IMG/VR virus record: IMGVR_UViG_3300008267_000720
Location: 1 to 33,403 of that record
DNA: 33,403 nucleotides
Strand: one strand, 5' to 3'
DNA from: a virus
A model generated the notes under the pieces. That model was given only the letters and a program-made list of their open reading frames with translations, ran no database searches and had not been told where the DNA came from. Of the stretch, positions 3,087-14,738 are shown piece after piece; the stretch's first letter is position 1; every line of letters starts with the position of its first letter. The position numbers and the translations under genes were made by a program.

Positions 3087-3575
3087 ATGACCGCCTACGC
3101 GACCTACACGGATCTGGAGCACGCGCTCGACACCACGATCCTCGCGCAACTGTGCGGGGACGGCGGTCAGTCGATGCCGGGGCCGAATCCGATGACCGAC
3201 GCCGCGCTGGAGTTCGCGACGGCTGCGGTGCGAGCGTACATCCGCGTTGGGGAGATCTACACCGAGGACGAGATCACGGCGCTGGACACGGCGCACGATC
3301 CGCTGCTGGTGCATCTCGTCGTGGACCTCGCGACCGAGTGGCTGTTCCAGAGGCGCGGCGCGAAGATGTCCCCCGCGATTGAGCAGCGCGTCAAGCAGTC
3401 GTACTCGTTTCTGGAGGGCCTGCGGGACGGCAAGATGCTGTTCGGCTCGGTCGCCAGCAACGCGGTCGCCGGGACGCCGCAGGTCGCTGCGGTCGGCCTG
3501 AGCAACCTCGCGTGGTACAACGGCGCGAGCAACAGCGCATTCTTCCCGCGTCGGCGGGGGACGACCTACCCGTGA
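3087..3575 (+). CDS. Mu gp36-like head-tail connector (DUF1320-type)
   Basis: This 162-residue protein starts at an ATG after a strong TAGGAGG. The pattern A-T-Y-T-D-L-E-x-A-L, followed by an alpha-helical section (A-L-E-F-A-T-A-A-V-R-A-Y-I-R-V-G), D-P-L-L-V-H-L-V-V-D-L-A-T-E-W-L-F-Q-R-R and a final L-R-D-G-K-M-L-F-G, matches the DUF1320/gp36 family that joins head and tail in Mu-like phages. The last ~40 residues are loose and Ser/Asn/Arg-rich. It ends in a GTGA overlap with the next gene, so the two are translationally coupled. Confidence 0.65.
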   Translation: MTAYATYTDLEHALDTTILAQLCGDGGQSMPGPNPMTDAALEFATAAVRAYIRVGEIYTEDEITALDTAHDPLLVHLVVDLATEWLFQRRGAKMSPAIEQRVKQSYSFLEGLRDGKMLFGSVASNAVAGTPQVAAVGLSNLAWYNGASNSAFFPRRRGTTYP

Positions 3576-4219
3576 ACTGGAACCGGATCGTCCGCAGGGC
3601 GCTGCAACGGCCCGAGGTGCTGCAGGGCATCGCGCAGGTCGCGGCCTCGTACCCCAAGGACCACATCCGCGAGAACATCGGGCGCTCCGCGTCGGGCGGC
3701 GTCGAGGCGCACAAGCCGCTCAAGAACATCTCTGGCGAATACTGGTCGCGCAGCCTCCCCAAGGGCGCAAAGGCGTCCGCAACGCGCACGGTTGCGGTGA
3801 CGAACGCCAAGGGCAAGACCCGGTTCGTGCGCGAGTGGCTGATCCGCGGAGAGTCGTACAGGAACGGCGGACAGCCGCTCCGCAACACAGGCAACATGCT
3901 CCGAGAGATGGGCGCGACCGCGACCTACCGGGGCGGCAAGATCCGCGTCAGGATGCTTGGCCCGAAGTACGCTCTGTTTCAGGACAAGGGGTTCACGACG
4001 CGAGGCCCGAACTACATCCCGCTGACCCGCAAGGGCGTCCGGGGTCACGGCACGGGACAGAACCCAGAGGCCGAGGGTCTGACGCGAGGCAAGGACTTCA
4101 AGATGGCGTGGAAGGGCGTGACTGTTCCCGCCAGACCGTTTATCCTCCCGACATCGGACGATGTCGTGGACATGGGCAAGAGCATCTTCCGCGCCTTACG
4201 GCGTCTTCTGACGAGGTAA
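3572..4219 (+). CDS. Mu gpG-like virion morphogenesis protein
   Basis: The start is taken as GTG 3572, whose last two bases begin the TGA of the preceding gene, with GGGGGA upstream. An ATG at 3512 is in frame but deep inside the neighbour. The product is 215 residues. The middle carries P-L-R-N-T-G-N-M-L-R-E-M and later P-K-Y-A-L-F-Q-D-K-G-F-T-T-R, and the C-terminus has V-P-A-R-P-F-I-L-P-T. This is the order of conserved blocks in the phage virion morphogenesis (gpG/Phage_tail_S) family, which completes the tail or head-tail junction. It sits between connector and tail genes, as expected. Confidence 0.7.
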   Translation: MNWNRIVRRALQRPEVLQGIAQVAASYPKDHIRENIGRSASGGVEAHKPLKNISGEYWSRSLPKGAKASATRTVAVTNAKGKTRFVREWLIRGESYRNGGQPLRNTGNMLREMGATATYRGGKIRVRMLGPKYALFQDKGFTTRGPNYIPLTRKGVRGHGTGQNPEAEGLTRGKDFKMAWKGVTVPARPFILPTSDDVVDMGKSIFRALRRLLTR

Positions 4220-4222
4220 CAC

Positions 4223-4714
4223 ATGGCTGCACTCATCTATGTCGCTGGTCCGACCAAGGTCGAAATCAACGACGGAACCGGGCTGGCGGTGCTCGGATAC
4301 TCCGACAACGACAATCTTCCCGCGATCCAGTTCACCGACCACCAGCATGAGGTCAAGACCGTCGTGTCCGGTGCGGCTCCCGAGGAGATCGTGCTGCAGG
4401 GACTGACGGCTCGCATCAGCGTCGCGCTGGTGAAGTGGGATCAGGATGTGCTGGATGACATGCTGGTCCGGCAGCGCGGCCTCGTCAACGAGGTCACGGT
4501 CGGTCGCCGCATCGTCGCAAACACCGGATACTTCGGCCTCAAGATCAGCAGCATCGCCAACGGCTCCGGCTACGAGTTCGCGTACGCGTTCCTGCAGCCG
4601 GACGGTCTCGGTGACTCGCAATGGGGCAACCGCGAGCGCGTGTTGACGCTCGCGTTCAACGCGATCCCCAATCCGACGACAGGGCAACTCTTCACGGAAA
4701 CGCTTCCCGCATGA
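4223..4714 (+). CDS. Probable major tail (tube) protein
   Basis: This 163-residue protein of mostly beta character lies directly before the frameshifted chaperone pair, which is where siphoviruses keep the major tail tube gene. Nothing in the sequence is a decisive tube signature. The assignment rests on gene order, size and the many short hydrophobic strands (for example I-S-V-A-L-V-K-W, G-L-K-I-S-S-I). It ends in an ATGA overlap with the chaperone gene. A second possibility is a small connector or completion protein. Confidence 0.5.
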   Translation: MAALIYVAGPTKVEINDGTGLAVLGYSDNDNLPAIQFTDHQHEVKTVVSGAAPEEIVLQGLTARISVALVKWDQDVLDDMLVRQRGLVNEVTVGRRIVANTGYFGLKISSIANGSGYEFAYAFLQPDGLGDSQWGNRERVLTLAFNAIPNPTTGQLFTETLPA

Positions 4715-4974
4715 TCGACCTGAACGACGACAACGACCCGATGCTGTTCCGAGCGACCTGCGCCGCAGGCGTGCTGGTGTTTCAGTACATGGAGGTCGTG
4801 TTCACGCTGCAGGGCGGCGGGAACATCGACGCGAATCCGGACTCGCAGAAGATCCTCGCCGCGATGCGTCAGGCTTCCCGAACGCCGGACATCGCAAGGC
4901 AGGCCGACGACGCGGTGCTGATGGCAATCTGGCATCGCATGAGCATCGCGGTCAACAACTCAAAAAACGACTGA
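4711..4974 (+). CDS. Tail assembly chaperone, short form (gpG-like, zero frame)
   Basis: This 87-residue product starts at ATG 4711, which overlaps the preceding stop. It is rich in short helices and ends V-N-N-S-K-N-D just after a slippery heptamer at 4962-4968. In siphoviruses the short chaperone G is made in zero frame, and a minority of ribosomes shift to make G-T, which loads the tape measure protein during tail assembly. The position between the tail-tube candidate and the tape measure agrees with this role. Confidence 0.75.
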   Translation: MIDLNDDNDPMLFRATCAAGVLVFQYMEVVFTLQGGGNIDANPDSQKILAAMRQASRTPDIARQADDAVLMAIWHRMSIAVNNSKND

Positions 4975-5228
4975 GGGCAACCGCCCGATTCCTCGCGACC
5001 TACGGGCGGTTGCCGACCGAGTTCGATCCTGAGACCGCGATGGGACTCGCAGCGAACATCCCCGCCATCGAAGCCGCCGAGGCGCTGACGCTCGCGCAAG
5101 GCATCCGTCTTGCGCTTGGCGAGGATCCGTCCGCGCACGCTCGCGCCGTGTTCGCGGCGACGGGCAGCGCCGCGCTCGCGCAGCGCATTGAAGTCCAAGG
5201 CAAGATGCGGAAGGCGATGAATGGCTAG
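4711..5228 (+). CDS. Tail assembly chaperone, -1 frameshift fusion (G-T form)
   Basis: A -1 slip on A-AAA-AAC at 4962-4968 joins the first 86 codons of the zero-frame gene to an open frame reading from 4968 to the stop at 5226-5228, giving a 172-residue fusion. The T part has 86 residues, begins R-L-R-A-T-A-R-F-L-A and is mostly helical. That frame has no convincing independent start (only TTG 5010 within a stem arm), which favours frameshifting. The T part overlaps the next ATG at 5221. Coordinates cover both frames; the true coding path is 4711-4968 joined to 4968-5228. Confidence 0.8.
4962..5014 (+). promoter_or_regulatory. -1 programmed ribosomal frameshift element
   Basis: The slippery heptamer AAAAAAC (4962-4968) is in register as tc-A-AAA-AAC. 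A 7-nt spacer (4969-4975) follows, then a perfect 12-bp stem: GGCAACCGCCCG (4976-4987) pairs with CGGGCGGTTGCC (5003-5014) around a 15-nt loop. The zero-frame stop TGA is at 4972-4974. Spacer length, stem strength and position between the chaperone frames are those of a classic stimulatory structure. A pseudoknot with downstream sequence is possible but was not tested. Confidence 0.88.
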
Positions 5229-5676
5229 TACGAGCGAAATCCTCTACGCGATGCGCGACGACCTTGCCGCATGGATGTCCCAGCGCGGCTACGGAGACGC
5301 CGTCTACATCGTGGAGACGCGCATTGACGAGGTCGTCGGAGCGCACGCCATCCAGATCATCCCCGGACAAGACACGGCGGTACATCCCAACTCGGGCGTC
5401 GGCTTGGTCCGCTCGCAGGTGGACATCGTCGTCTGGTGGAGGGGCTTCCTCGACCCGATGAGCCGAGGCACAGAGCGCATCGCAGGCAACGAGGGCGTGC
5501 AGTTGTTCGCGGATGCGCTGCGCGAGTACCTCGTCCAGCGGACCTACAACGGAATGCTGATCGCGCTGACCTTCCGGCAGGGCGGAACCGTCGAGCCTGT
5601 GCCGGAACTTGAGGGCTGGCTGACGCTGCGCGACACCTACGAATACGGGTACGAGATGTCGTGGGAGGTCAAATAA
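5221..5676 (+). CDS. Tail completion/terminator-like protein (tentative)
   Basis: This 151-residue protein starts at ATG 5221 inside the end of the chaperone T frame and ends at TAATG shared with the tape measure gene. It begins with a helix (E-I-L-Y-A-M-R-D-D-L-A-A-W-M) and then alternates strands with a long central helix (G-V-Q-L-F-A-D-A-L-R-E-Y-L). That layout is seen in tail terminator or minor tail completion proteins, but I recognise no family motif. Placing a tail terminator after the chaperones would be uncommon, so the role is open. Confidence 0.4.
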   Translation: MASTSEILYAMRDDLAAWMSQRGYGDAVYIVETRIDEVVGAHAIQIIPGQDTAVHPNSGVGLVRSQVDIVVWWRGFLDPMSRGTERIAGNEGVQLFADALREYLVQRTYNGMLIALTFRQGGTVEPVPELEGWLTLRDTYEYGYEMSWEVK

Positions 5677-6800
5677 TGGCGCAGGACCTAGGCAACATCA
5701 ACATCACGATCCGCGGCGGAACGGCTGGCGGAACGACGGGGTCAGGATCGCCGGGAGGCGGTCCCGCTCCCCTGCCGTCGAGCGCCGCAGGCGGGGCAAC
5801 GGGCGCTTCCACGGCGTCTGTGACGGTTCCGGCAACGCCGCCGCCCCCGACAGGCGGCTCCGCAAGCACGCAGGCAATCGCGCAGTCCGCTGCTCAGAAC
5901 ATGCCGAGCCTGTTTGAGCGCCTGCTGGGCCGTGCCGCGCAGAGCAGCGCGATCAAGGGCGAGGTCATGGGGTTCCTGCAGTCGCCGTCCCTTGGCGGTC
6001 TGGCGCAACTCGGGCAGGTGAGCAGCAGCACGGGCGCTGCGCTGGCACGGCTTGGGGCCGCTGCAGGGCCGATTGGCGTGGCCGCGCTCGCCACGGCGGG
6101 GGCGTTCATCCTGAGCCTAAAGATGATGTCAAGCGCCGCGCAGATGACCGCGCAGCGCATTCAGGAGACCATGCGGTTCTCTGGCGTCATGCAGTATCAG
6201 GCTGGCGTGGAGAAGTTCCGCGAGTTCGGGCGCACGATGGCGGACCTGAACCGCAACGGCGCGATGTACGCGCAGTCGCAGCGTCTGCAGACCATCGTCA
6301 ACGACAGGCAGGCCCGGGCAATGACCGAACTGAACGGCATCGTGGCCGAGGCTGGGCAGGTGTTCCAGAAACTGCAGATCGGGTTCTACGCCGCGATTGA
6401 GGGCATCGCCAAGGTCATCAACGGTGTAAAAAGCATCCTGAACTTCCTCGGCGTCGGCATGGAGGAGATGCTGTTATTTGCGGTAGCGCCCATCGCAGGA
6501 CCTGCGTTTGCTTGGCTCAAGGAGCCGATCATGCAGATCGTGTCGTACCTGTTTGGCATTGAGGCGAATACGAAGCCGCAGGTTGGCGCATCTGGCGTGA
6601 ACAACTGGTTCCTCGGAGACCTCGCGGCCATGACGCGAAACGCGAACGCCTACAGCGACAAGCCATCGGGCAAGTCCGCGGCTGTGTCGCCGCGCAGCGG
6701 ACGGCCCAACAAGCCTGCGGCGTCTGCGCCCCCGACGCGAGGTCTCGCAGCACCGCAATCGCCGCGTCCCCCGCGTGTCGGCCTAGCAGCACCGCAATGA
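5676..6800 (+). CDS. Short tape measure protein
   Basis: The start ATG 5676 overlaps the preceding TAA, with GGGAGG upstream; the product is 374 residues. The N-terminal ~70 residues are Gly/Pro/Ala/Ser-rich. A central helical part follows, with hydrophobic stretches (residues ~125-150, G-P-I-G-V-A-A-L-A-T-A-G-A-F-I-L, and ~255-275, M-L-L-F-A-V-A-P-I-A-G), and then a Pro/Ala-rich tail with G-L-A-A-P-Q repeated twice. Position right after the chaperones and membrane-like helices fit a tape measure, which sets tail length and helps DNA cross the membrane. At 374 residues the tail would be short, on the order of 50-60 nm by the usual 1.5 angstrom per residue rule. Confidence 0.65.
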   Translation: MAQDLGNINITIRGGTAGGTTGSGSPGGGPAPLPSSAAGGATGASTASVTVPATPPPPTGGSASTQAIAQSAAQNMPSLFERLLGRAAQSSAIKGEVMGFLQSPSLGGLAQLGQVSSSTGAALARLGAAAGPIGVAALATAGAFILSLKMMSSAAQMTAQRIQETMRFSGVMQYQAGVEKFREFGRTMADLNRNGAMYAQSQRLQTIVNDRQARAMTELNGIVAEAGQVFQKLQIGFYAAIEGIAKVINGVKSILNFLGVGMEEMLLFAVAPIAGPAFAWLKEPIMQIVSYLFGIEANTKPQVGASGVNNWFLGDLAAMTRNANAYSDKPSGKSAAVSPRSGRPNKPAASAPPTRGLAAPQSPRPPRVGLAAPQ

Positions 6801-6807
6801 GGCACAC

Positions 6808-8712
6808 ATGTCCACAGACATCGTCATCATCCCATACGACGCGAACCCGACGCTGACGCTGCTGAACTGCCAGATTGAGCAGTACAGCAACGAGCCTGTG
6901 TTCGCGCAGGACGGCATGACTGTCGAGAGCACCCGTTTGGCTATCTCGGGGACATGCATCATCGACAACACGGCGAGCATCAATGTCTCGCAAAATCTGG
7001 AACGGGCCTCGCAGCGGTGCTCGTCCATCGTGATGACCGTTGGCGGGTCATCGCTCATCAATCTGACCGCGGGTGAGAGCAACATCAAGGGGCCGTTCCT
7101 GAAGTTGAACGCGACGCAGGTTGTTGGAGCACAGGGTCTGTGTCTTGTTCGGTTTGAGATCAACGACACCTATCCGGTGTGCCGAACCTCGCCGCTGCTC
7201 TCGCACACTTGGACGCAGACCATGTCGCTCGACATGGCGGGTCATGCGACGCGCACGGTGAATGGCACGCTCCGCGCATGGATGAACAAGGACGGCGCAC
7301 AGACGCTGGTTCCACAAGACGCATCGGGGTGGATCAACCGTTCTGGGTACGCGGACCTGTTCCGAGATCCGATTTTGCCCGATGTGCCGGGGTACGGATG
7401 GCGTCGCGAGTCGCAGCAGTTCGCCTACGACGCGACCAGCACCGGGCTGGTGTATCAGTTCGTGGATCGTCAGTACGCATACGACCTGCCGGACGGGGTG
7501 CGTGTAGGCGACATGGAGTTCTCATACGAGCGGAACCTCGACAACCCGGGCGTCGCGAACATCTCGTTCTCGTGCGACCTTGAGGGCGACCTCTCGCTGA
7601 CTCTCATCAGCACCTATGCAGCCGGAGCGCAACCTACGACGGGCAACCGCTACCTGCTCGCGCAGGCAATCGCCCTGAGCAAGACGCGAATCAACGCCAA
7701 CTACGGCGGATGCCTCGTCACCCGTCTGCGTGTCACCGAGAGAGACATGCTGTCGGGGTTCAAGATCCGTCTTGAAATCGACGCGCAGATGTATCCGACC
7801 CTCAACAACGAGGTCACGACCGAAATCGCTCCGATTGCTTGGATGGTTGGACAGCGGTTTGAGGTCACGCGTTCGATCTCGCGCACGATGTCGCCCTACG
7901 GCCCGTATGCAGGCATCCCACATGAAGACGGTCCGGGAGAGGGCCAGCAGGGCAACAGGTACGCGATGGTTCCGCATTGGATCAGCAATGCGCTGCAGGA
8001 CATGGAGTGTCCCAACGGCGCATACCCGCTGCCAAAAAGCCTGCTGCTGATGTTTGAAGGCACGAACGACTACGGCAATGTGAATGTTGCCGTGGGTGTC
8101 GATCAGGCTGGCGTCACGGCGATCAACCAGCAGTTTGCAGGCAGGTACAAGGCCGACCAGAAGCAGGATGCCGACGAAGAATCCAGCGGAATCGACTACA
8201 CGCAGATCATCTCGCACAACCTCTCGCTGACCAATGCGAACTACGACACGGGCATGGTGCGCCTGTCCACGATGTATCTCGACAAGGCGGACATCGTGCT
8301 GCAGGTGGGCAAGCCCGTGGTGCGAGTCAAGGAACATCTGGAGGTCGCCAAGGCGAACACCGCTCCGACCAAGGTGTTCCGACCGCTTCCTGCTGGCGCT
8401 ATCCTCATATCAGAAAACTACGATGTCTCGTTCGGGAAGTTCGACACGCAGGGGCAACGCATGTTCGTCGGGTCGTTTGATCGCGAGTTCCAGATGTACG
8501 ATCCCGGCGGCGCGTCCGGCAACGGGTTCTCCACCCAGACCAGCGTCTCGGCGGGACAGGTCCGTGCGTGGGCCGCGCCGAACGGGAAACTCAATCCGAC
8601 TCTGGCGCAGATCGCGACGAACGCGTCGCAGGGTTCCACGGCAAGCGTGTTCGGCTCGCAGCCTGTTGCGGCGCTCTCATACCTGACGCCGGGGGAGACA
8701 TTCGTCACATGA
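6808..8712 (+). CDS. Large minor tail protein, unrecognised
   Basis: This 634-residue, strand-rich protein follows the tape measure, the usual place for distal tail or baseplate proteins. It has many aromatic-polar alternations and no signal peptide or membrane segment. I recognise no family. Its order (tape measure, this gene, then another large tail gene) suggests a distal tail or hub component. A weak AGGCAC lies before the ATG. It ends in an ATGA overlap with the next gene, so the two products are probably made in matched amounts. Confidence 0.55.
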   Translation: MSTDIVIIPYDANPTLTLLNCQIEQYSNEPVFAQDGMTVESTRLAISGTCIIDNTASINVSQNLERASQRCSSIVMTVGGSSLINLTAGESNIKGPFLKLNATQVVGAQGLCLVRFEINDTYPVCRTSPLLSHTWTQTMSLDMAGHATRTVNGTLRAWMNKDGAQTLVPQDASGWINRSGYADLFRDPILPDVPGYGWRRESQQFAYDATSTGLVYQFVDRQYAYDLPDGVRVGDMEFSYERNLDNPGVANISFSCDLEGDLSLTLISTYAAGAQPTTGNRYLLAQAIALSKTRINANYGGCLVTRLRVTERDMLSGFKIRLEIDAQMYPTLNNEVTTEIAPIAWMVGQRFEVTRSISRTMSPYGPYAGIPHEDGPGEGQQGNRYAMVPHWISNALQDMECPNGAYPLPKSLLLMFEGTNDYGNVNVAVGVDQAGVTAINQQFAGRYKADQKQDADEESSGIDYTQIISHNLSLTNANYDTGMVRLSTMYLDKADIVLQVGKPVVRVKEHLEVAKANTAPTKVFRPLPAGAILISENYDVSFGKFDTQGQRMFVGSFDREFQMYDPGGASGNGFSTQTSVSAGQVRAWAAPNGKLNPTLAQIATNASQGSTASVFGSQPVAALSYLTPGETFVT

Positions 8713-10694
8713 TCGAAGCATGGTTTGAGACCTTTCACGACCCAGCGAAGATCATTCCCGCGATCCTCCCGACCGAGGAGGTTGCGGACATCGCGCAGGC
8801 CGCGGGAATCGGCGCGGACGAACTGTTCAGCATTGAGATTCCCGGCGGCGCGTCCCGGCATTCGCGGGTTCGCGTGCTGGTGAATGTGGCGGATATCGCA
8901 GACCTCTACTCGTCGCAGGCGACAATTGACGGTGAGGTGTACAAGGCGACAGCAATGTTCCGCTGGCGCGAGTCGAGCATCGCGCAGGCCCCTGTACCGA
9001 AGATGCTGGTATGGCTGCGGCCCCCTCGGCCTGTCCTACTGCATCCGATGCTGGATGGAGTCCCCGCCGTGGCGACAAGTCGCGGCGTCATGGCCGTCGA
9101 GGCGGTCGATGCGCGATGGCTCTGGCAGCAGCGCAGAAACTTTGATGGCCCAGTTCCGACGCAGACGAGCCTAGATGAACGGTGGACCGTGACTGCGTCC
9201 ACGGAGTGGGTTGACATCATTGATGTCCTAAATTATTGCGTAGGTTCGTTGGACCCGAGTGATCTGGTAGACATCAGCGCGATTGTCGTTGGGTCAACGC
9301 TCGACCCATTGATCAACGGCGACAGGCTGACGAATCTGTCGTTTCAGCCGGATCACAGCATCGCGATGATCCTTGACATGGCCCTGAGCGCAGCGGGTTT
9401 CGTGCTGATATTTGATCCTGCGTTCGACGATGACTATCCCTTTGGTAAGTATGTTGCCGTCCAGATCAAGGATGAGCGCACGCTCCTCGGCAATTGGATG
9501 AACCAGACCTACGGCAAGCGAGCGCACGCGGGAGGACTTGAGCCTCCGAGCGGGACGACGAACGCCGTCGAGGAACTGATGAACCAATGGGTTCGCACGG
9601 CAGACACGCAGGTCAATCGACTTCCCGAGGAGGTCGCGGTTATGCATCGCAAGGGCTTTGTCGAGGCCCAGACCGACTACGCAAACCTCGGATCCGACCA
9701 CTTGCTTGACGAGAACGCATGGGAGGCGGCGGTCAACATGGGACCGCTATCAGTCGCCACGAACGACACCAGCACCCACGAAATGGAAACCATATTGACG
9801 GCACGCGTCCGCGCAGATTTCCCGTACGCGATGCCGGACGCCATGCTTGGGTACGAACCACGCGGCATCGCGGCTAAGGACAACGGAACTCTGGTGGATT
9901 CCGGAATTGCCCAGCCAGAGTGGTTCTACCTGCCCTACGACATTGCGGTCGCGGCGCTGCTCGCTCGTCGCACCGAGATGTGCTGGGGTCGCATTGGCTG
10001 GGCGGGTTGGCCGACCTCCATGCCTGCCGGAGCGTATCGCGGGACCATGTGGAGGTTCAGTCTGACGCTGCGCAACGGCGATGCCGTTCCGATGTGCATG
10101 ACGGAGGCCAGCGAAGAGGATTGGATCTTCGGCGCGAGCGTCAGCCCAGAGAGGGACATCCGCAACATCGTGTTCCCACGCGGAAACCTGCGGGTGAACA
10201 GGCTTTACAACGGCGCGCTGATGATGTCGGTCGCGCCGCCCAACTGCCGGGTGTTTCCGGCAAAGATCACGGCCTCGACGCGCTGTGGCGTCAGCGGCAA
10301 CGCCTACTGGTCGTGGACCTATGAGTTTGAGGAGGTCGAGCCAAACCCAATCTCCTGCAACCCGTTGGTGCGGACGATTAATGCGGCCACGATGTACTGC
10401 CAGCGCAGGCAGACCGACCGCGGGACCGCGACATTCCTCGCTCGCAACCTCGCGGAGGCTGGCAACATCTATGTCGCCGCGGCGAACTCGGGGAACCGCA
10501 TTGCGCCCGGGGTGCTGCAGAGCGCCTACGCCAGCGCGACCATTGAACCCCTGCCCATCAGCATCGGAACGGTGGTGATGATGTGCGAGCACTACCTGAC
10601 GATGTACATCAACGATAGCGCGCCCTTCCCGCCGTACAATCGTGAGTATTGGTTCGTGATGCCGAACGCCGTCAATGTGGTCTGCAACCCGTAG
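8709..10694 (+). CDS. Large tail hub/baseplate-type protein, unrecognised
   Basis: The product is 661 residues, starting at ATG 8709 (ATGA overlap with the preceding stop) and beginning M-I-E-A-W-F-E-T-F. An in-frame ATG at 8568 lies inside the previous gene and is not used here. The protein mixes beta-rich stretches with a central part ending Y-D-I-A-V-A-A-L-L-A-R-R, and has several Trp-rich motifs (W-G-R-I-G-W-A-G-W). By position it is the second large tail-tip protein and a candidate hub or adhesin carrier. I cannot assign a family. Confidence 0.55.
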   Translation: MIEAWFETFHDPAKIIPAILPTEEVADIAQAAGIGADELFSIEIPGGASRHSRVRVLVNVADIADLYSSQATIDGEVYKATAMFRWRESSIAQAPVPKMLVWLRPPRPVLLHPMLDGVPAVATSRGVMAVEAVDARWLWQQRRNFDGPVPTQTSLDERWTVTASTEWVDIIDVLNYCVGSLDPSDLVDISAIVVGSTLDPLINGDRLTNLSFQPDHSIAMILDMALSAAGFVLIFDPAFDDDYPFGKYVAVQIKDERTLLGNWMNQTYGKRAHAGGLEPPSGTTNAVEELMNQWVRTADTQVNRLPEEVAVMHRKGFVEAQTDYANLGSDHLLDENAWEAAVNMGPLSVATNDTSTHEMETILTARVRADFPYAMPDAMLGYEPRGIAAKDNGTLVDSGIAQPEWFYLPYDIAVAALLARRTEMCWGRIGWAGWPTSMPAGAYRGTMWRFSLTLRNGDAVPMCMTEASEEDWIFGASVSPERDIRNIVFPRGNLRVNRLYNGALMMSVAPPNCRVFPAKITASTRCGVSGNAYWSWTYEFEEVEPNPISCNPLVRTINAATMYCQRRQTDRGTATFLARNLAEAGNIYVAAANSGNRIAPGVLQSAYASATIEPLPISIGTVVMMCEHYLTMYINDSAPFPPYNREYWFVMPNAVNVVCNP

Positions 10695-10703
10695 GAGCCG
10701 AGC

Positions 10704-11045
10704 ATGGCAAGCGTGGACAAGTGGAACATCGTGTTTGCGCGGGGTGCGACCTACACGCAGACGATCACCGTGACGGGCGTGGCGAACATCGCGACGGCGA
10801 CCGAGTGGCGCATCCGCTGCGCCTTCCCCAACGAGCCGGAGTTCCTGCTCGCGACCACCAACAACGGCCTGATGATTGCTGGCGCGACGACCTCTCAGAA
10901 GGTCCTCGTCGTGCCTGCGGCGACGACCGCGCTGTTCGACCTAGGCAACGCTCGGTTTGACTTTGAGGTCGCGTTCCCGGACGGCTCGGTCAGCCGCTAC
11001 ATCAGCAACGGCCTGTGTCAGATCAACCCAGAGGTGGGCGCATGA
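10704..11045 (+). CDS. Small baseplate/fibre-attachment protein (BppU-like N-terminus)
   Basis: This 113-residue protein begins with W-N-I-V-F-A-R-G-A-T-Y-T-Q-T-I-T-V-T. This pattern recurs at the start of small phage tail proteins and of BppU-type upper baseplate proteins, where it forms a beta-sandwich that docks fibres to the tail tip. A GGAG site precedes the ATG. It overlaps the following fibre-like gene by ATGA, which supports a docking partner for that protein. Confidence 0.5.
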   Translation: MASVDKWNIVFARGATYTQTITVTGVANIATATEWRIRCAFPNEPEFLLATTNNGLMIAGATTSQKVLVVPAATTALFDLGNARFDFEVAFPDGSVSRYISNGLCQINPEVGA

Positions 11046-11590
11046 GCGTCGAAATAACGGTCACGGACAGCGGGGTGGTCATCGATGTCAGCCCGTCCGG
11101 CATCGGGGTGGTTGGGGTGGGCATTCCCACGGGCGGCACGACCGGGCAGGTGTTGACAAAGACCAGCGCAACGAACTACGCGGTTGCGTGGCAGACCCCG
11201 AGCGCAGGCGCTCTGGCGAACAACTGGACGACGCTGGGGGCCAACATCACCCTGAGCGCAGGAAACTGGGGAGATGCCCTATCGCTGACCCTGTCGGCGG
11301 GAACTTGGCTGGTGCTGGGGAATGCGACTGCGGCCCCCGGCACAAACCAGCAGGACATCTCGGTGCGCCTGTTCAATTCGACCGCCTCAACGACCCTCAG
11401 CAGCACCAGCATGCACGCGGAGCACAGCAACGAGCCGCACGCGCTCGCGGCGACGGCGATTGTGACGCTCTCCCTGTCCTCGGTTGTCAAGTTGCAACTG
11501 CGCTGCGAGTCATCCCCGGGGACGGTGTATGCGAACTCCGAGGGCCTAGGGAACACCAGCACGACGCTCGCAGCGGTGCAGATCGGCTGA
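11042..11590 (+). CDS. Tail fibre/receptor-binding protein with jelly-roll-like head
   Basis: The product is 182 residues from ATG 11042. Residues ~25-50 read G-I-P-T-G-G-T-T-G-Q-V-L-T-K-T followed by Y-A-V-A-W-Q-T-P, a very common connector in phage tail fibres. The last ~110 residues are Thr/Ser/Ala-rich strands ending in A-A-V-Q-I-G, like a trimeric C1q/jelly-roll receptor-binding head. It is the last gene before the lysis cluster and most likely contacts the host surface. Its small size suggests a short fibre. Confidence 0.6.
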   Translation: MSVEITVTDSGVVIDVSPSGIGVVGVGIPTGGTTGQVLTKTSATNYAVAWQTPSAGALANNWTTLGANITLSAGNWGDALSLTLSAGTWLVLGNATAAPGTNQQDISVRLFNSTASTTLSSTSMHAEHSNEPHALAATAIVTLSLSSVVKLQLRCESSPGTVYANSEGLGNTSTTLAAVQIG

Positions 11591-11596
11591 TACGAT
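11588..11596 (+). promoter_or_regulatory. Extended -10-like box TGATACGAT before the lysis cluster
   Basis: The stop codon TGA of the fibre gene is also the TG-n of an extended -10 box, followed by TACGAT. The same nonamer occurs before the polyprotein gene at 25997. Here the next ATG is 16 nt away and has its own AGGTGGAG, so this copy may drive either a short-leader mRNA or one starting at GTG 11601. No clear -35 is seen. Confidence 0.4.
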
Positions 11597-11612
11597 CTAG
11601 GTGGAGACCCCT

Positions 11613-11804
11613 ATGGACTTCGACCAGTTCGGCGGCATCATTGCACCCATCGCAACCATAATCGCGGCCAGCAGTTGGCTGCATAATTCGCTCAACAAGA
11701 TCGCGATCAAGGTCGAGGTCATGAACGCGAAATTGGATGACTACGGCCAGCGCATCAGCCGCATTGAGCAGGAACTCGACCAAATTCGGAGGAGGCAGCC
11801 ATGA
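11613..11804 (+). CDS. Small membrane-anchored coiled-coil protein (lysis-associated)
   Basis: The product is 63 residues from ATG 11613, with AGGTGGAG six nt upstream; GTG 11601 would add four residues. An N-terminal hydrophobic segment (G-G-I-I-A-P-I-A-T-I-I-A-A-S-S-W-L) is followed by a charged heptad-like helix (M-N-A-K-L-D-D-Y-G-Q-R-I-S-R-I-E-Q-E-L). Proteins of this shape sit next to holins and may regulate or anchor the lysis complex. It overlaps the holin candidate by ATGA. Confidence 0.55.
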   Translation: MDFDQFGGIIAPIATIIAASSWLHNSLNKIAIKVEVMNAKLDDYGQRISRIEQELDQIRRRQP

Positions 11805-11980
11805 AGGACCGCAACACGACCGTCGCAGGCATTGGAGCCATTCTCGTCGCCATCGGCGGCATCCTGACGACGATGTTCGACGGCGACGGCAGCACGGTCC
11901 CCGACTACGCATCGGCGGCTGCGGCTCTCATCGCGGGCATCGGTCTCATCTTCGCGAAGGACGCGAAGAAGGATGCTTGA
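11801..11980 (+). CDS. Putative holin, two transmembrane segments
   Basis: This 59-residue protein starts at ATG 11801, overlapping the preceding TGA, with GGAGGCAGCC upstream. Residues ~8-25 (V-A-G-I-G-A-I-L-V-A-I-G-G-I-L) and ~38-52 (A-S-A-A-A-A-L-I-A-G-I-G-L-I-F) are hydrophobic and separated by a short acidic loop (D-G-D-G). The C-terminus is basic (K-D-A-K-K-D-A). Two membrane helices, small size and a charged tail match class II holins, which pierce the inner membrane to start lysis. It is followed by a lipoprotein gene. Confidence 0.65.
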   Translation: MKDRNTTVAGIGAILVAIGGILTTMFDGDGSTVPDYASAAAALIAGIGLIFAKDAKKDA

Positions 11981-12149
11981 GAGGCTGCTCCTTGCCCTCG
12001 CGGTTGCCATCATCGGCTGGCTGGAGAAACGCGCAGAGCGTGGACCGACTGCGGTCGATGCGACTCGCGATGACGGTCGCCTTGCTCGCGCTGGCGAGCG
12101 GGTTCGTCGCTGGATGCGGAAGCCGAACGATTCTCGTCCCGGAGAGTAG
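11973..12149 (+). CDS. Short membrane-tethered basic protein overlapping the lipoprotein gene (possible i-spanin-like)
   Basis: This 58-residue frame starts at ATG 11973 inside the end of the holin gene. It begins M-L-E-R-L-L-L-A-L-A-V-A-I-I-G-W-L, a likely membrane anchor, and continues as a very basic helix. The lipoprotein gene starts inside it in another frame, the same nested arrangement as Rz/Rz1 inner- and outer-membrane spanins. It is much shorter than a normal i-spanin and cannot span the periplasm alone, so the role is doubtful, although the overlap is clear. Confidence 0.45.
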   Translation: MLERLLLALAVAIIGWLEKRAERGPTAVDATRDDGRLARAGERVRRWMRKPNDSRPGE

Positions 12150-12291
12150 TCCCGTCCGCGTCGGCCCGAGTCTGCGAGGCCGCGTGTACGCGCTGGTTGA
12201 CAACGAGTGGCGACTGTCGCCCAATGCTGTGGAGATCCCCGAGGGCTGGTATCTAGTACCGCCGTCGTTTGTCGAGGGTCCGCACGAATGA
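12058..12291 (+). CDS. Lipoprotein, o-spanin-like, nested in the preceding frame
   Basis: This 77-residue protein starts at ATG 12058. Residues 1-20 form a signal peptide (M-R-L-A-M-T-V-A-L-L-A-L-A-S-G-F-V-A-G-C) with lipobox F-V-A-G-C. The mature part reads G-S-R-T-I-L-V-P-E-S-S-P-V-R-V-G and ends P-E-G-W-Y-L-V-P-P, a pattern seen in small phage lipoproteins beside holins. In diderm hosts such proteins sit in the outer membrane and help disrupt it at lysis. The start is confident because the signal peptide begins there. It overlaps the next ATG by ATGA. Confidence 0.65.
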   Translation: MRLAMTVALLALASGFVAGCGSRTILVPESSPVRVGPSLRGRVYALVDNEWRLSPNAVEIPEGWYLVPPSFVEGPHE

Positions 12292-12485
12292 GGATCCTGC
12301 GCCCTCTTGAGATCGCACGCCGGATCGGCTGCACGCCGAAATATGTTGGCTACCTAATCGACAGCGGAAAACTCCGCGGATACAGGCTCCCGGGGTCGCT
12401 GCATCGGCGCGTCCGCGAGGATGTCCTAGATGCATTCATTCGCGAGCGAATAGAGCAGAAGGGAACGCGCAAACATGGGATCTGA
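12288..12485 (+). CDS. Excisionase/MerR-like helix-turn-helix protein
   Basis: The product is 65 residues from ATG 12288 (ATGA overlap). It reads L-R-P-L-E-I-A-R-R-I-G-C-T-P-K-Y-V-G-Y-L, then G-K-L-R-G-Y-R-L-P-G, then R-R-V-R-E-D-V-L-D-A-F-I. This is the typical layout of a HTH_17 domain: a helix-turn-helix, a short wing and a C-terminal helix. Such proteins bind DNA as excisionases or regulators. No integrase is present, so a late transcriptional regulator is more likely than a true excisionase. It lies inside the late operon and overlaps the cysteine-rich gene by 11 nt. Confidence 0.7.
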   Translation: MRILRPLEIARRIGCTPKYVGYLIDSGKLRGYRLPGSLHRRVREDVLDAFIRERIEQKGTRKHGI

Positions 12486-14433
12486 GGTTCTCTCAGCGTG
12501 CTGCTGCGGCCAGACCGGACAATGCACTCTGCGTCCAACCGTGTTCGGGGAAACCATTGACACCGGGTGCTGTCACCTAGAGGACTCGCTCATCCTGTTT
12601 TGCGAGCGGCCCGGGTACAGCAACGAGCAATGGACGACTTGCGGAACAGGCATCGACACCGAGATCCACTACAGGGTCACAGGCGCGTCATGCGACCCCA
12701 TCGTCGCGCTCTACAAGTTCTACGATTGCTGGTATCGCGTCGCGTACGCGTTCGGCGGCGGCGCGGAACTGCTGTGCAACCTGCCGCGGCAATGCTCATT
12801 CCCGGGTTGCAGCGGTCCGCCGCCGAGCGGCACGACCTTCTGCGAGCCGCTGAATCAGGATTGGAACGGCGTCAGCGATCCCTGCTGTCAGGTGGTTCTG
12901 CCGACCTGCCAATGCCAGACCATCTGGTATTCGCTGCGTCAGCAGGCGGTCATCCGCGATCAGGATCCGCGCTACCCGTCCCCTTGCCGTTGGCTTGACG
13001 AGGTAGTGTGTCACGCCGGAGGGAATCCGGTGTGCGGCGGTCTCAGCCTCTACAACCAGTTTCTCGGCGTGGTGTTTTTTGAACGCGTGTGGAAGGTTCC
13101 CGATGGTCAGTTCGGCGGCGACTACTGCGACCCCGGCGTGCGCGTGTACATCCCGCCTTGCGACAACTGCACGGACGACTACGCACCGAACCCGAGCACG
13201 ACCGTCCCGTACTACATCGCGTATGCAGGCGCCGGAGTCCCGGTGTTCCTGTGCGACCTTGACGACGCGCTGAAGCGAGGAATCATCACGACGCAGGAGC
13301 GAACGGACCTGCTCAACGACCTGCTGGCGCAGGTGCAGCCCGATCAGGCGATCCTCCGCAAGATGCAGGCGTACTGGACCCCGGGAGACTACCGCGACGA
13401 GCAGGTCGCGGCGTGGCAGGAACTCTGCACGCGGTTCCCCGGCAGCGGGTACTGCTCCTGCCCGACGACGGCCTGCACGATGCCGATGCTTGGGCCGTTC
13501 CGCAAGCGATGCGTGCCGGATGTCTGCACGACGGGCGCACAGTCCTGCATCCTGTACAGCGACATGACCGACAGCGCGAAGGCGCTCAACTCGTCGTGTC
13601 AGTACGCGTACCCGGGTTCGTGTGCGTCGCAGGCCGACTACGACTACTGGGCCGAACGCCAATGGACCTACTGGCGCGGAGTCCCGGGCGGGTGGGCGTG
13701 GGGCAACTGGAGCGTGACGCCGGACGAGTTCAAGAGTGGTCTGGGCCGCAACGGTCTGGAGTGCATGAACGGGCTGCGGAACATGGAGCGGTGCGACCCC
13801 ACCTGCACCAATCTGCCGTGCCGACCGAGCGCGACAACCTGCTGCGGATGCAATCCGACCGTGCCGCCAGCCTGCACGCAATGCTCGGTGCAGGGCTGCT
13901 CGGACACCGTGGACAACTACGCGTGCTTCAAGGTCCAGAACTTCACCTGCAGCGGCCTTGCGGCGCAGCCTGAGTGCTACGGCGTGCAGTTCATCGGCTG
14001 GCAGTATTACGCTGAGACGAACCTGCAGCGACCGCCGGGTCAGGAGACGATTTTGAAGTGCCTGTACAACGCTCGCTCCTTCCTCGTCGGGGCGCAGCGC
14101 AGCGTGCAATGGGACGGCGTCTGTCCGATGTCGTGCGTCGCGGCATCGCCGCCGCTGGGCGTGTTCAAGAACTGGCCTGCGTTCGTTCCGGGGGCGCTGG
14201 GCGAGGGCGTGATCTGCGGCGCGATCAGCAACGGCCTCCCCGGCTACAGTCTGAGCAACCTCTGCTGCGGTCACCATTGCCCGTCGTTCGACAATGACAA
14301 CTGCGGCTGGTGGGAGGAACTGGAGGGGACAACCTCCACAATCCGTCGCCCCTGTGCGGCTGTCACCGCTTGCCCGACGCTTACGCCGCAGCAGACGGCC
14401 TGCATCGGATTCACCCCGGACTGCACCCCATGA
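12475..14433 (+). CDS. Giant cysteine-rich late protein, function unknown
   Basis: This 652-residue protein contains about 59 cysteines by manual count (roughly 9%), spread along its length as C-C-C, C-C, C-x-C and C-x-x-C groups (for example near residues 9-11, 31-32, 457-460 and 601-602). I see no signal peptide, membrane segment or recognised enzyme motif. It lacks regular repeats but is rich in Trp, Tyr, Pro and Gly, like extracellular disulfide-stabilised proteins. It follows the HTH gene in the late operon with an 11-nt overlap. It could be a virion surface protein that gains disulfides after release, a metal-binding protein or a lysis factor. The frame is supported by codon pattern and by coupling at both ends. 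Confidence 0.8.
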   Translation: MGSEVLSACCCGQTGQCTLRPTVFGETIDTGCCHLEDSLILFCERPGYSNEQWTTCGTGIDTEIHYRVTGASCDPIVALYKFYDCWYRVAYAFGGGAELLCNLPRQCSFPGCSGPPPSGTTFCEPLNQDWNGVSDPCCQVVLPTCQCQTIWYSLRQQAVIRDQDPRYPSPCRWLDEVVCHAGGNPVCGGLSLYNQFLGVVFFERVWKVPDGQFGGDYCDPGVRVYIPPCDNCTDDYAPNPSTTVPYYIAYAGAGVPVFLCDLDDALKRGIITTQERTDLLNDLLAQVQPDQAILRKMQAYWTPGDYRDEQVAAWQELCTRFPGSGYCSCPTTACTMPMLGPFRKRCVPDVCTTGAQSCILYSDMTDSAKALNSSCQYAYPGSCASQADYDYWAERQWTYWRGVPGGWAWGNWSVTPDEFKSGLGRNGLECMNGLRNMERCDPTCTNLPCRPSATTCCGCNPTVPPACTQCSVQGCSDTVDNYACFKVQNFTCSGLAAQPECYGVQFIGWQYYAETNLQRPPGQETILKCLYNARSFLVGAQRSVQWDGVCPMSCVAASPPLGVFKNWPAFVPGALGEGVICGAISNGLPGYSLSNLCCGHHCPSFDNDNCGWWEELEGTTSTIRRPCAAVTACPTLTPQQTACIGFTPDCTP

Positions 14434-14738
14434 GCACTCGACTCGGCTACATCCCCGACAACGCTGCGACGCGCATCACCGCGCAGCCGCCCGTCTCCCC
14501 CACGGACACCCCCGCATCCGAGCCTGAGCCGACCCGGATGCGGGGGCTGGGGGACCTCGTCCACCGGGTGCTCGACGCTGTAGGCGTGGTGCGGTTCGTC
14601 AAGGCGCGGGAGCAGCAGACCGGGAAGGAATGCGGCTGCAAGCGCCGCCGCGAGGCCCTGAACCGCGCCGTGCCGTTTAGCGGCGCAGGAGCCGCGCCAG
14701 AGCCTTCCGCTTCACGGACCCACTCGGAGCAGCCCTAG
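14430..14738 (+). CDS. Small C-x-C protein at the end of the late operon
   Basis: The product is 102 residues from ATG 14430 (ATGA overlap with the cysteine-rich gene). The ends are disordered and Pro/Ser/Ala-rich. The middle contains a helix and the motif E-C-G-C-K-R-R-R-E-A-L-N, which recurs in small uncharacterised phage proteins. The role is unknown; the C-x-C could bind metal. It is the last gene of the rightward arm and is followed by three hairpins. Confidence 0.6.
   Translation: MSTRLGYIPDNAATRITAQPPVSPTDTPASEPEPTRMRGLGDLVHRVLDAVGVVRFVKAREQQTGKECGCKRRREALNRAVPFSGAGAAPEPSASRTHSEQP

Follow-up and report, generated by a model that had tools for sequence, protein, structure and literature searches.

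The locus raises the question of what a tailed phage does with a long late protein that is exceptionally rich in cysteine. Tailed phages are not generally known for disulfide-rich proteins, a scarcity ascribed to their assembly in the reducing cytoplasm. The gene lies in a stretch of 33,403 nucleotides (positions 1 to 33,403 of IMG/VR virus record IMGVR_UViG_3300008267_000720), which is referred to here as the window and whose relevant features are collected in the table together with those of related contigs. The open reading frame starts with ATG, and the GC contents of its three codon positions (0.57, 0.54 and 0.83) match those of the other late genes around it. Its product is 9.05% cysteine, contains 19 tryptophans and 30 tyrosines, and is acidic (61 acidic against 39 basic residues). 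A core with conserved Trp, Arg and Gly (residues ~165–430) lies between a Cys-rich N-terminus (CCC...C...CCH) and a Cys-rich C-terminus. Neither a signal peptide nor a transmembrane stretch is found in the protein; 19-residue Kyte-Doolittle means peak at 1.26 over the whole chain and at 0.64 at the N-terminus. A sequence-only reading of this DNA had described a 652-residue late protein with some 59 cysteines (~9%) and no signal peptide, and both descriptions are borne out. The antisense frame at 12796–14277 was rejected as an artefact, since two stops interrupt it in a 91%-identical relative and its substitution pattern is inverted ('dN/dS' 2.3). The sense frame is a real gene.

Features of the window and of related contigs (L numbers) at and around the cysteine-rich gene
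Feature	Position	Strand	Remarks
Tail-tip-like protein, 708 aa	8568..10694	+	start codon uncertain; C-terminal ~145 residues form a shared domain
LtfC-like beta-sandwich protein (fibre connector type)	10704..11045	+	E 5e-4, below Pfam cut-off; PHROG 1084
Fibre-like protein, 182 aa	11042..11590	+	weak match to a minor tail protein PHROG
Small protein, 58 aa	11973..12149	+	N-terminal hydrophobic stretch
Lipoprotein, 76 aa	12061..12291	+	lipobox ASGFVAGC; overlaps the 58-aa frame out of frame
HTH-like protein, 65 aa	12288..12485	+	HTH_17, just below its cut-off
Cysteine-rich protein	12475..14433	+	652 aa, 59 Cys
Partner gene, 102 aa	14430..14738	+	contains GKECGCKRRREALNRAVPF; occupies the site of the zinc-ribbon protein in relatives
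AKITGS-type C-terminal domain, in otherwise different virion-type proteins	L058:2692-4095; L060:5371-6804; L045:9072-9983; window 8568-10694		
Small protein with strongly acidic tail	L014:9722-9970		DDITPLYAAERAARLLIEEAGADAVVILWTTQ..FWRHQIGNAMLCNA..EEEEE; has homologues
Calcineurin-like phosphoesterase-type protein, 290 aa	L030:6862-7731		Pfam E 0.0014, below cut-off; homologues in L014, L016, L024, L050, L054
Cysteine-rich form, 3127 aa	L098:6260-15643		IMGVR 3300025168_000086; 4.6% Cys

Relatives of the protein were recovered from ~35 other viral contigs by scanning IMG/VR with the protein and then with successively broader alignments. Two further relatives, on contigs of metagenome-assembled genomes labelled pond and Loclat, turned up in a single scan covering 85,000 genomes of bacteria and archaea; these contigs may be mis-binned. 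Identity within the family ranges from 91% down to ~30% over the whole length, and the 20 representatives measured contain 6.4–9.4% Cys. Other ORFs of at least 400 aa on the same contigs average 1.4% Cys (s.d. 1.1, maximum 5.4), whereas family members, taken as stop-to-stop frames, contain 5.6–9.1% and head the Cys distribution of the 265 ORFs with 400 codons or more across the collected contigs. The cysteine content is therefore not a compositional bias of the phage; the neighbouring capsid and tail genes of the window contain 0–2%. Sense-frame dN/dS is 0.17 between the window and its closest relative, L006, and 0.10, 0.21, 0.07, 0.14 and 0.15 for other pairs of relatives; the distant pair of the window and L002 gives 0.37, with dS near saturation. 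By these ratios the family is under strong purifying selection. Cys is the best conserved residue type in divergent members, with 27 of 56 comparable positions keeping it in at least 90%, and 28 columns in an alignment of 29 sequences are at least 90% Cys. The remaining conservation concerns Trp, Arg, Gly, Pro and Tyr, mostly within the core, where many Trp, Arg and Gln residues are invariant. A remote member of 3127 aa (L098) shares the CCC N-terminus, carries repeats of GACC type and is weakly similar in the core.

No credible match to the cysteine-rich protein came from Pfam, from PHROGs, even with the E limit relaxed to 5, or from sequence profiles of the PDB. No oxidoreductase motif or family was matched, and Pfam and PHROGs gave no lytic domain; identity as a lytic enzyme or spanin was rejected on the lack of a Pfam or PHROG match and of any transmembrane or signal stretch. 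By tblastn, four family members matched nothing in 50,697 cultured-phage records, nor did a collagen-type neighbour (described below) or the N-terminal part of the 3127-aa form match cultured phages. Among the matches listed, the terminase of the window reaches at most ~26% identity to its best cultured phages, and nothing directly on the family was found in the literature. AlphaFold2 gave a pLDDT of 73 and a pTM of 0.76 for the full protein (25 sequences), and 84 and 0.77 for the core only (28 sequences). Foldseek found no match at E<0.1 for the full model against BFVD and PDB or for the core model against PDB, and structural alignment with VIA-align reached a Z of at most 3.6, which is not meaningful. 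The absence of a match to these predicted models does not prove a new fold. The sequence-only reading had likewise recognised no fold, and had proposed comparisons of the HHpred/AlphaFold type and a search of environmental phage proteins. The former matched no solved fold among those tested; the latter supplied the relatives described above but no structural or lytic family that would explain the cysteines. Dozens of tailed phages that have not been cultured carry this undescribed family.

In the window the gene follows a tail-tip-like gene, an LtfC-like adaptor, a fibre-like gene, a lysis-like cassette and the HTH-like gene, in that order. The putative cassette consists of four small genes, encoding a coiled-coil transmembrane protein, a protein with two transmembrane segments, and an overlapping pair of a transmembrane protein and a lipoprotein; no endolysin was identified in it. 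From its sequence, the overlapping pair looks like an Rz/Rz1-type spanin pair, and relatives of the lipoprotein (ending IPEGWY.VPP) recur in family contigs. The HTH-like gene, which overlaps the start of the cysteine-rich gene by 11 bases, was seen only in the window and L006. The earlier description of the gene as lying right after the lysis genes is therefore plausible as regards a preceding cassette, but the HTH-like gene intervenes and the cassette has no identified endolysin.

In siphophage-like contigs an LtfC/'DLTGY' adaptor and fibre-like genes precede the cysteine-rich gene, and in some of them the lysis cassette intervenes. The cassette directly precedes the gene in the clade of the window and in L017, L020, L022 and L026, and lies elsewhere in L014, L016, L030, L045 and L054. 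In siphophage-like contigs where the cassette lies elsewhere, fibre-like genes and a small acidic-tailed protein separate the two. Because the position of the cassette varies, the fibre region is a more constant neighbour than the lysis genes. Two further genes recur here. The small protein with the acidic tail is encoded directly upstream in many siphophage-like relatives, and the calcineurin-like phosphoesterase-type gene has a conserved position between the lysis cassette and the fibre genes.

Between the window and L006 the cysteine-rich protein is 91% identical, whereas the tail-tip genes are only 40–44% identical. This conservation indicates that the protein is probably not the specificity-determining receptor-binding protein. 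More generally, tail genes within 3512–10694 of the window (5661–6800, 31%; 6808–8712, 44%; 8568–10694, 40%) are far more diverged from L006 than the genes on either side, e.g. 10704–14738, a pattern that suggests a block of recombination or diversification.

A home-made HMM detected a C-terminal domain (AKITGS...WtYtFeEV...LPI.NGTVV...FF..PNA..V.C) at the end of the window tail-tip protein. The same domain ends proteins encoded directly or closely upstream of the cysteine-rich gene in several clades, including both T4-type contigs, L058 and L060. Among the proteins that carry it, that of L045 matched no Pfam family and that of L058 gives only a weak Pfam match to collagen repeats. The portal protein of L058 shares 52% identity with cyanophage gp20; the other T4 gene names in L058 and L060 were read from translations and from the gene order of the Synechococcus phage S-SSM4. 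Both contigs have the order tube, portal, short-collagen protein with the AKITGS-type domain, and cysteine-rich protein, and L058 continues with a gp67-like gene and the protease. No lysis-like gene flanks the cysteine-rich gene in either. In S-SSM4 the portal (also present in L060), a small gene and the protease are adjacent, in the same order and with the same flanks as in L058, but the collagen-type and cysteine-rich genes are lacking at the portal-protease site. They are thus extra genes inside the morphogenesis block, and this insertion is the strongest argument for assigning the cysteine-rich protein to the particle or to its assembly.

Of 28 contigs that could be assessed (3' end complete, with 330 bases or more after it), 27 have a small partner gene directly downstream of the cysteine-rich gene; in the window its start overlaps the stop of the cysteine-rich gene. 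Twenty of the 28 carry the zinc-ribbon pattern CxxC...CxxCGC...CP.GKW, six a shorter CGC..R..LN form as in the window, and L021 a variant of the short form; L058 has a small Cys-free protein instead. Every zinc-ribbon match in the loci scanned adjoins a cysteine-rich gene, and the same ribbon stands behind the 3127-aa protein. The full pattern is common to the partner and the zinc-ribbon-like proteins of DUF6171 and PHROG 13558. The partner matches PHROG 13558 at 9e-9 to 7e-5 but scores below the Pfam cut-off for DUF6171, and the window clade has only the shorter motif; the likeness is in any case that of the partner, not of the cysteine-rich protein. Among cultured phages the ribbon gave only weak matches, which came from one Variovorax phage and from Rhizobium phages of large size. 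The Rhizobium phage inspected has no Cys-rich neighbour to its ribbon, and a nearby 750-codon gene has 5 Cys. As read by eye, many partners begin with short motifs that contain Tyr and resemble each other (GYIP, SYIS, MYL, MYFS).

The partner may assist assembly, or it may be a subunit that stays bound. Its near-invariable coupling to the cysteine-rich gene, with fibre genes close by, could also mean that the two proteins together form a chaperone or maturation machinery for fibre or tail-tip proteins, for example by thiol holding or exchange, and remain outside the finished particle. A core that is conserved while the fibre-like neighbours vary by clade agrees with such a role. However, the cysteine-rich protein has no oxidoreductase motif or family, its 59 cysteines are far above the need of an exchange enzyme, and its size and its make-up rich in Gly, Pro, Cys and Trp are like those of structural extracellular proteins. 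This explanation is possible but unlikely.

The spacing of the cysteines bears on whether they bind metal or form disulfides. In 20 members, CxxC pairs occur at the level of chance (92 observed against 87.7 expected, z 0.5), CxC is depleted (z -2.4), vicinal CC is enriched (z 4.0), and His makes up 1.6% of residues. Such a pattern favours disulfides over metal sites; it argues against knuckles, ribbons, ferredoxins and metallothionein-like sites and fits a disulfide-rich protein. Correlated gain and loss of Cys pairs on the tree was not significant (15 against 11.3 expected, p 0.19). A metallothionein was rejected, as these are short and CxC-rich with few aromatic residues. The suggestion that the protein binds many metal ions is weakened by the same figures. 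The great abundance of Cys in a cytoplasmic protein with no export signal, next to a partner resembling a zinc ribbon (CxxC..CxxCGC..C), would suit a multi-metal (Zn or Fe-S) intracellular protein that, late in infection, either works on nucleic acids of the host or the phage or sequesters metal. Against this stand not only the spacing and the scarcity of His but also the acidic rather than basic composition and the location inside a T4-type morphogenesis block, so that such a protein is quite improbable here. An extracellular action at or after lysis (attack on the host envelope, as the sequence-only reading had considered, or protection of particles) in concert with the lysis cassette that adjoins the gene in some clades is very improbable, as that link gives way to fibre genes in other contigs and to the portal-protease block in the T4-type ones, and no lytic domain or family is matched.

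The reading that best accounts for these observations, to which we assign a probability of about 0.52, is that the cysteine-rich protein is a structural component of the virion, most likely of its surface or an appendage, that folds reduced and is locked by disulfides after lysis. The protein would be made and folded in the cytoplasm without disulfides and incorporated into the particle or an appendage with the aid of the downstream zinc-ribbon partner (the CGC-motif protein in the window), where it would work with the fibre and tail-tip proteins encoded nearby. Lysis of the cell would bring the particle into an oxidising environment, where the cysteines (28 near-invariant, up to 59) would be oxidised. 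The resulting intra-chain and possibly inter-chain disulfides could hold a loop-rich fold in place, hardening the particle or an adhesive device. The earlier proposal that disulfides form only after release is accordingly the one most compatible with the Cys pattern and the genomic context, from which we infer the disulfides themselves, as well as a place in the virion, the role of the partner and a stabilising or adhesive function. Several observations speak against this reading. In the window, putative lysis genes separate the cysteine-rich gene from the tail genes; the correlated gain and loss of Cys pairs that disulfides would lead one to expect is not significant; the other structural proteins of the phage are poor in Cys, unlike those of phage Milano (below); and the protein is conserved between the window and L006 where their tail-tip genes have diverged. 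A more far-reaching version, which is tentative, would make the protein a new class of virion component, namely a giant disulfide-rich adhesin or armour domain of new fold, used by unrelated tailed phages, with a dedicated zinc-ribbon assembly factor and with disulfides that do not form before release and could serve as a redox switch when the next host is met. The system would be categorically new if both fold and partner system prove unique.

The closest known parallel to a disulfide-locked virion protein is the Agrobacterium phage Milano, whose virion proteins contain 2.1–2.4% Cys and form an extensive disulfide network, and whose particle owes to disulfides a stability that is lost in DTT (PMC10491603, PMC10811340). 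The Milano proteins concerned (collar gp13, sheath, baseplate and capsid) are likewise made in the cytoplasm, their cysteines are conserved among relatives, they form their disulfides in the particle, and they offer a mechanism for oxidation after release. The cysteine-rich family resembles them in being encoded with virion or morphogenesis genes and in the conservation of its cysteines among relatives. No homology between the family and Milano was detected, in a tblastn collection of 50,697 records that may not include Milano. The distribution of the cysteines also differs, since Milano spreads its 2.1–2.4% over many structural proteins, while the phage of the window concentrates 9% in one protein and has Cys-poor capsid and tail proteins. 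With up to 59 cysteines or more in a chain, the family may yield a new fold and lends itself to tests of oxidation after release, of the hardening of particles or of a redox trigger. If the structural reading is true, it would extend the Milano case, by way of a widespread family absent from the cultured-phage records searched, to many environmental phages.
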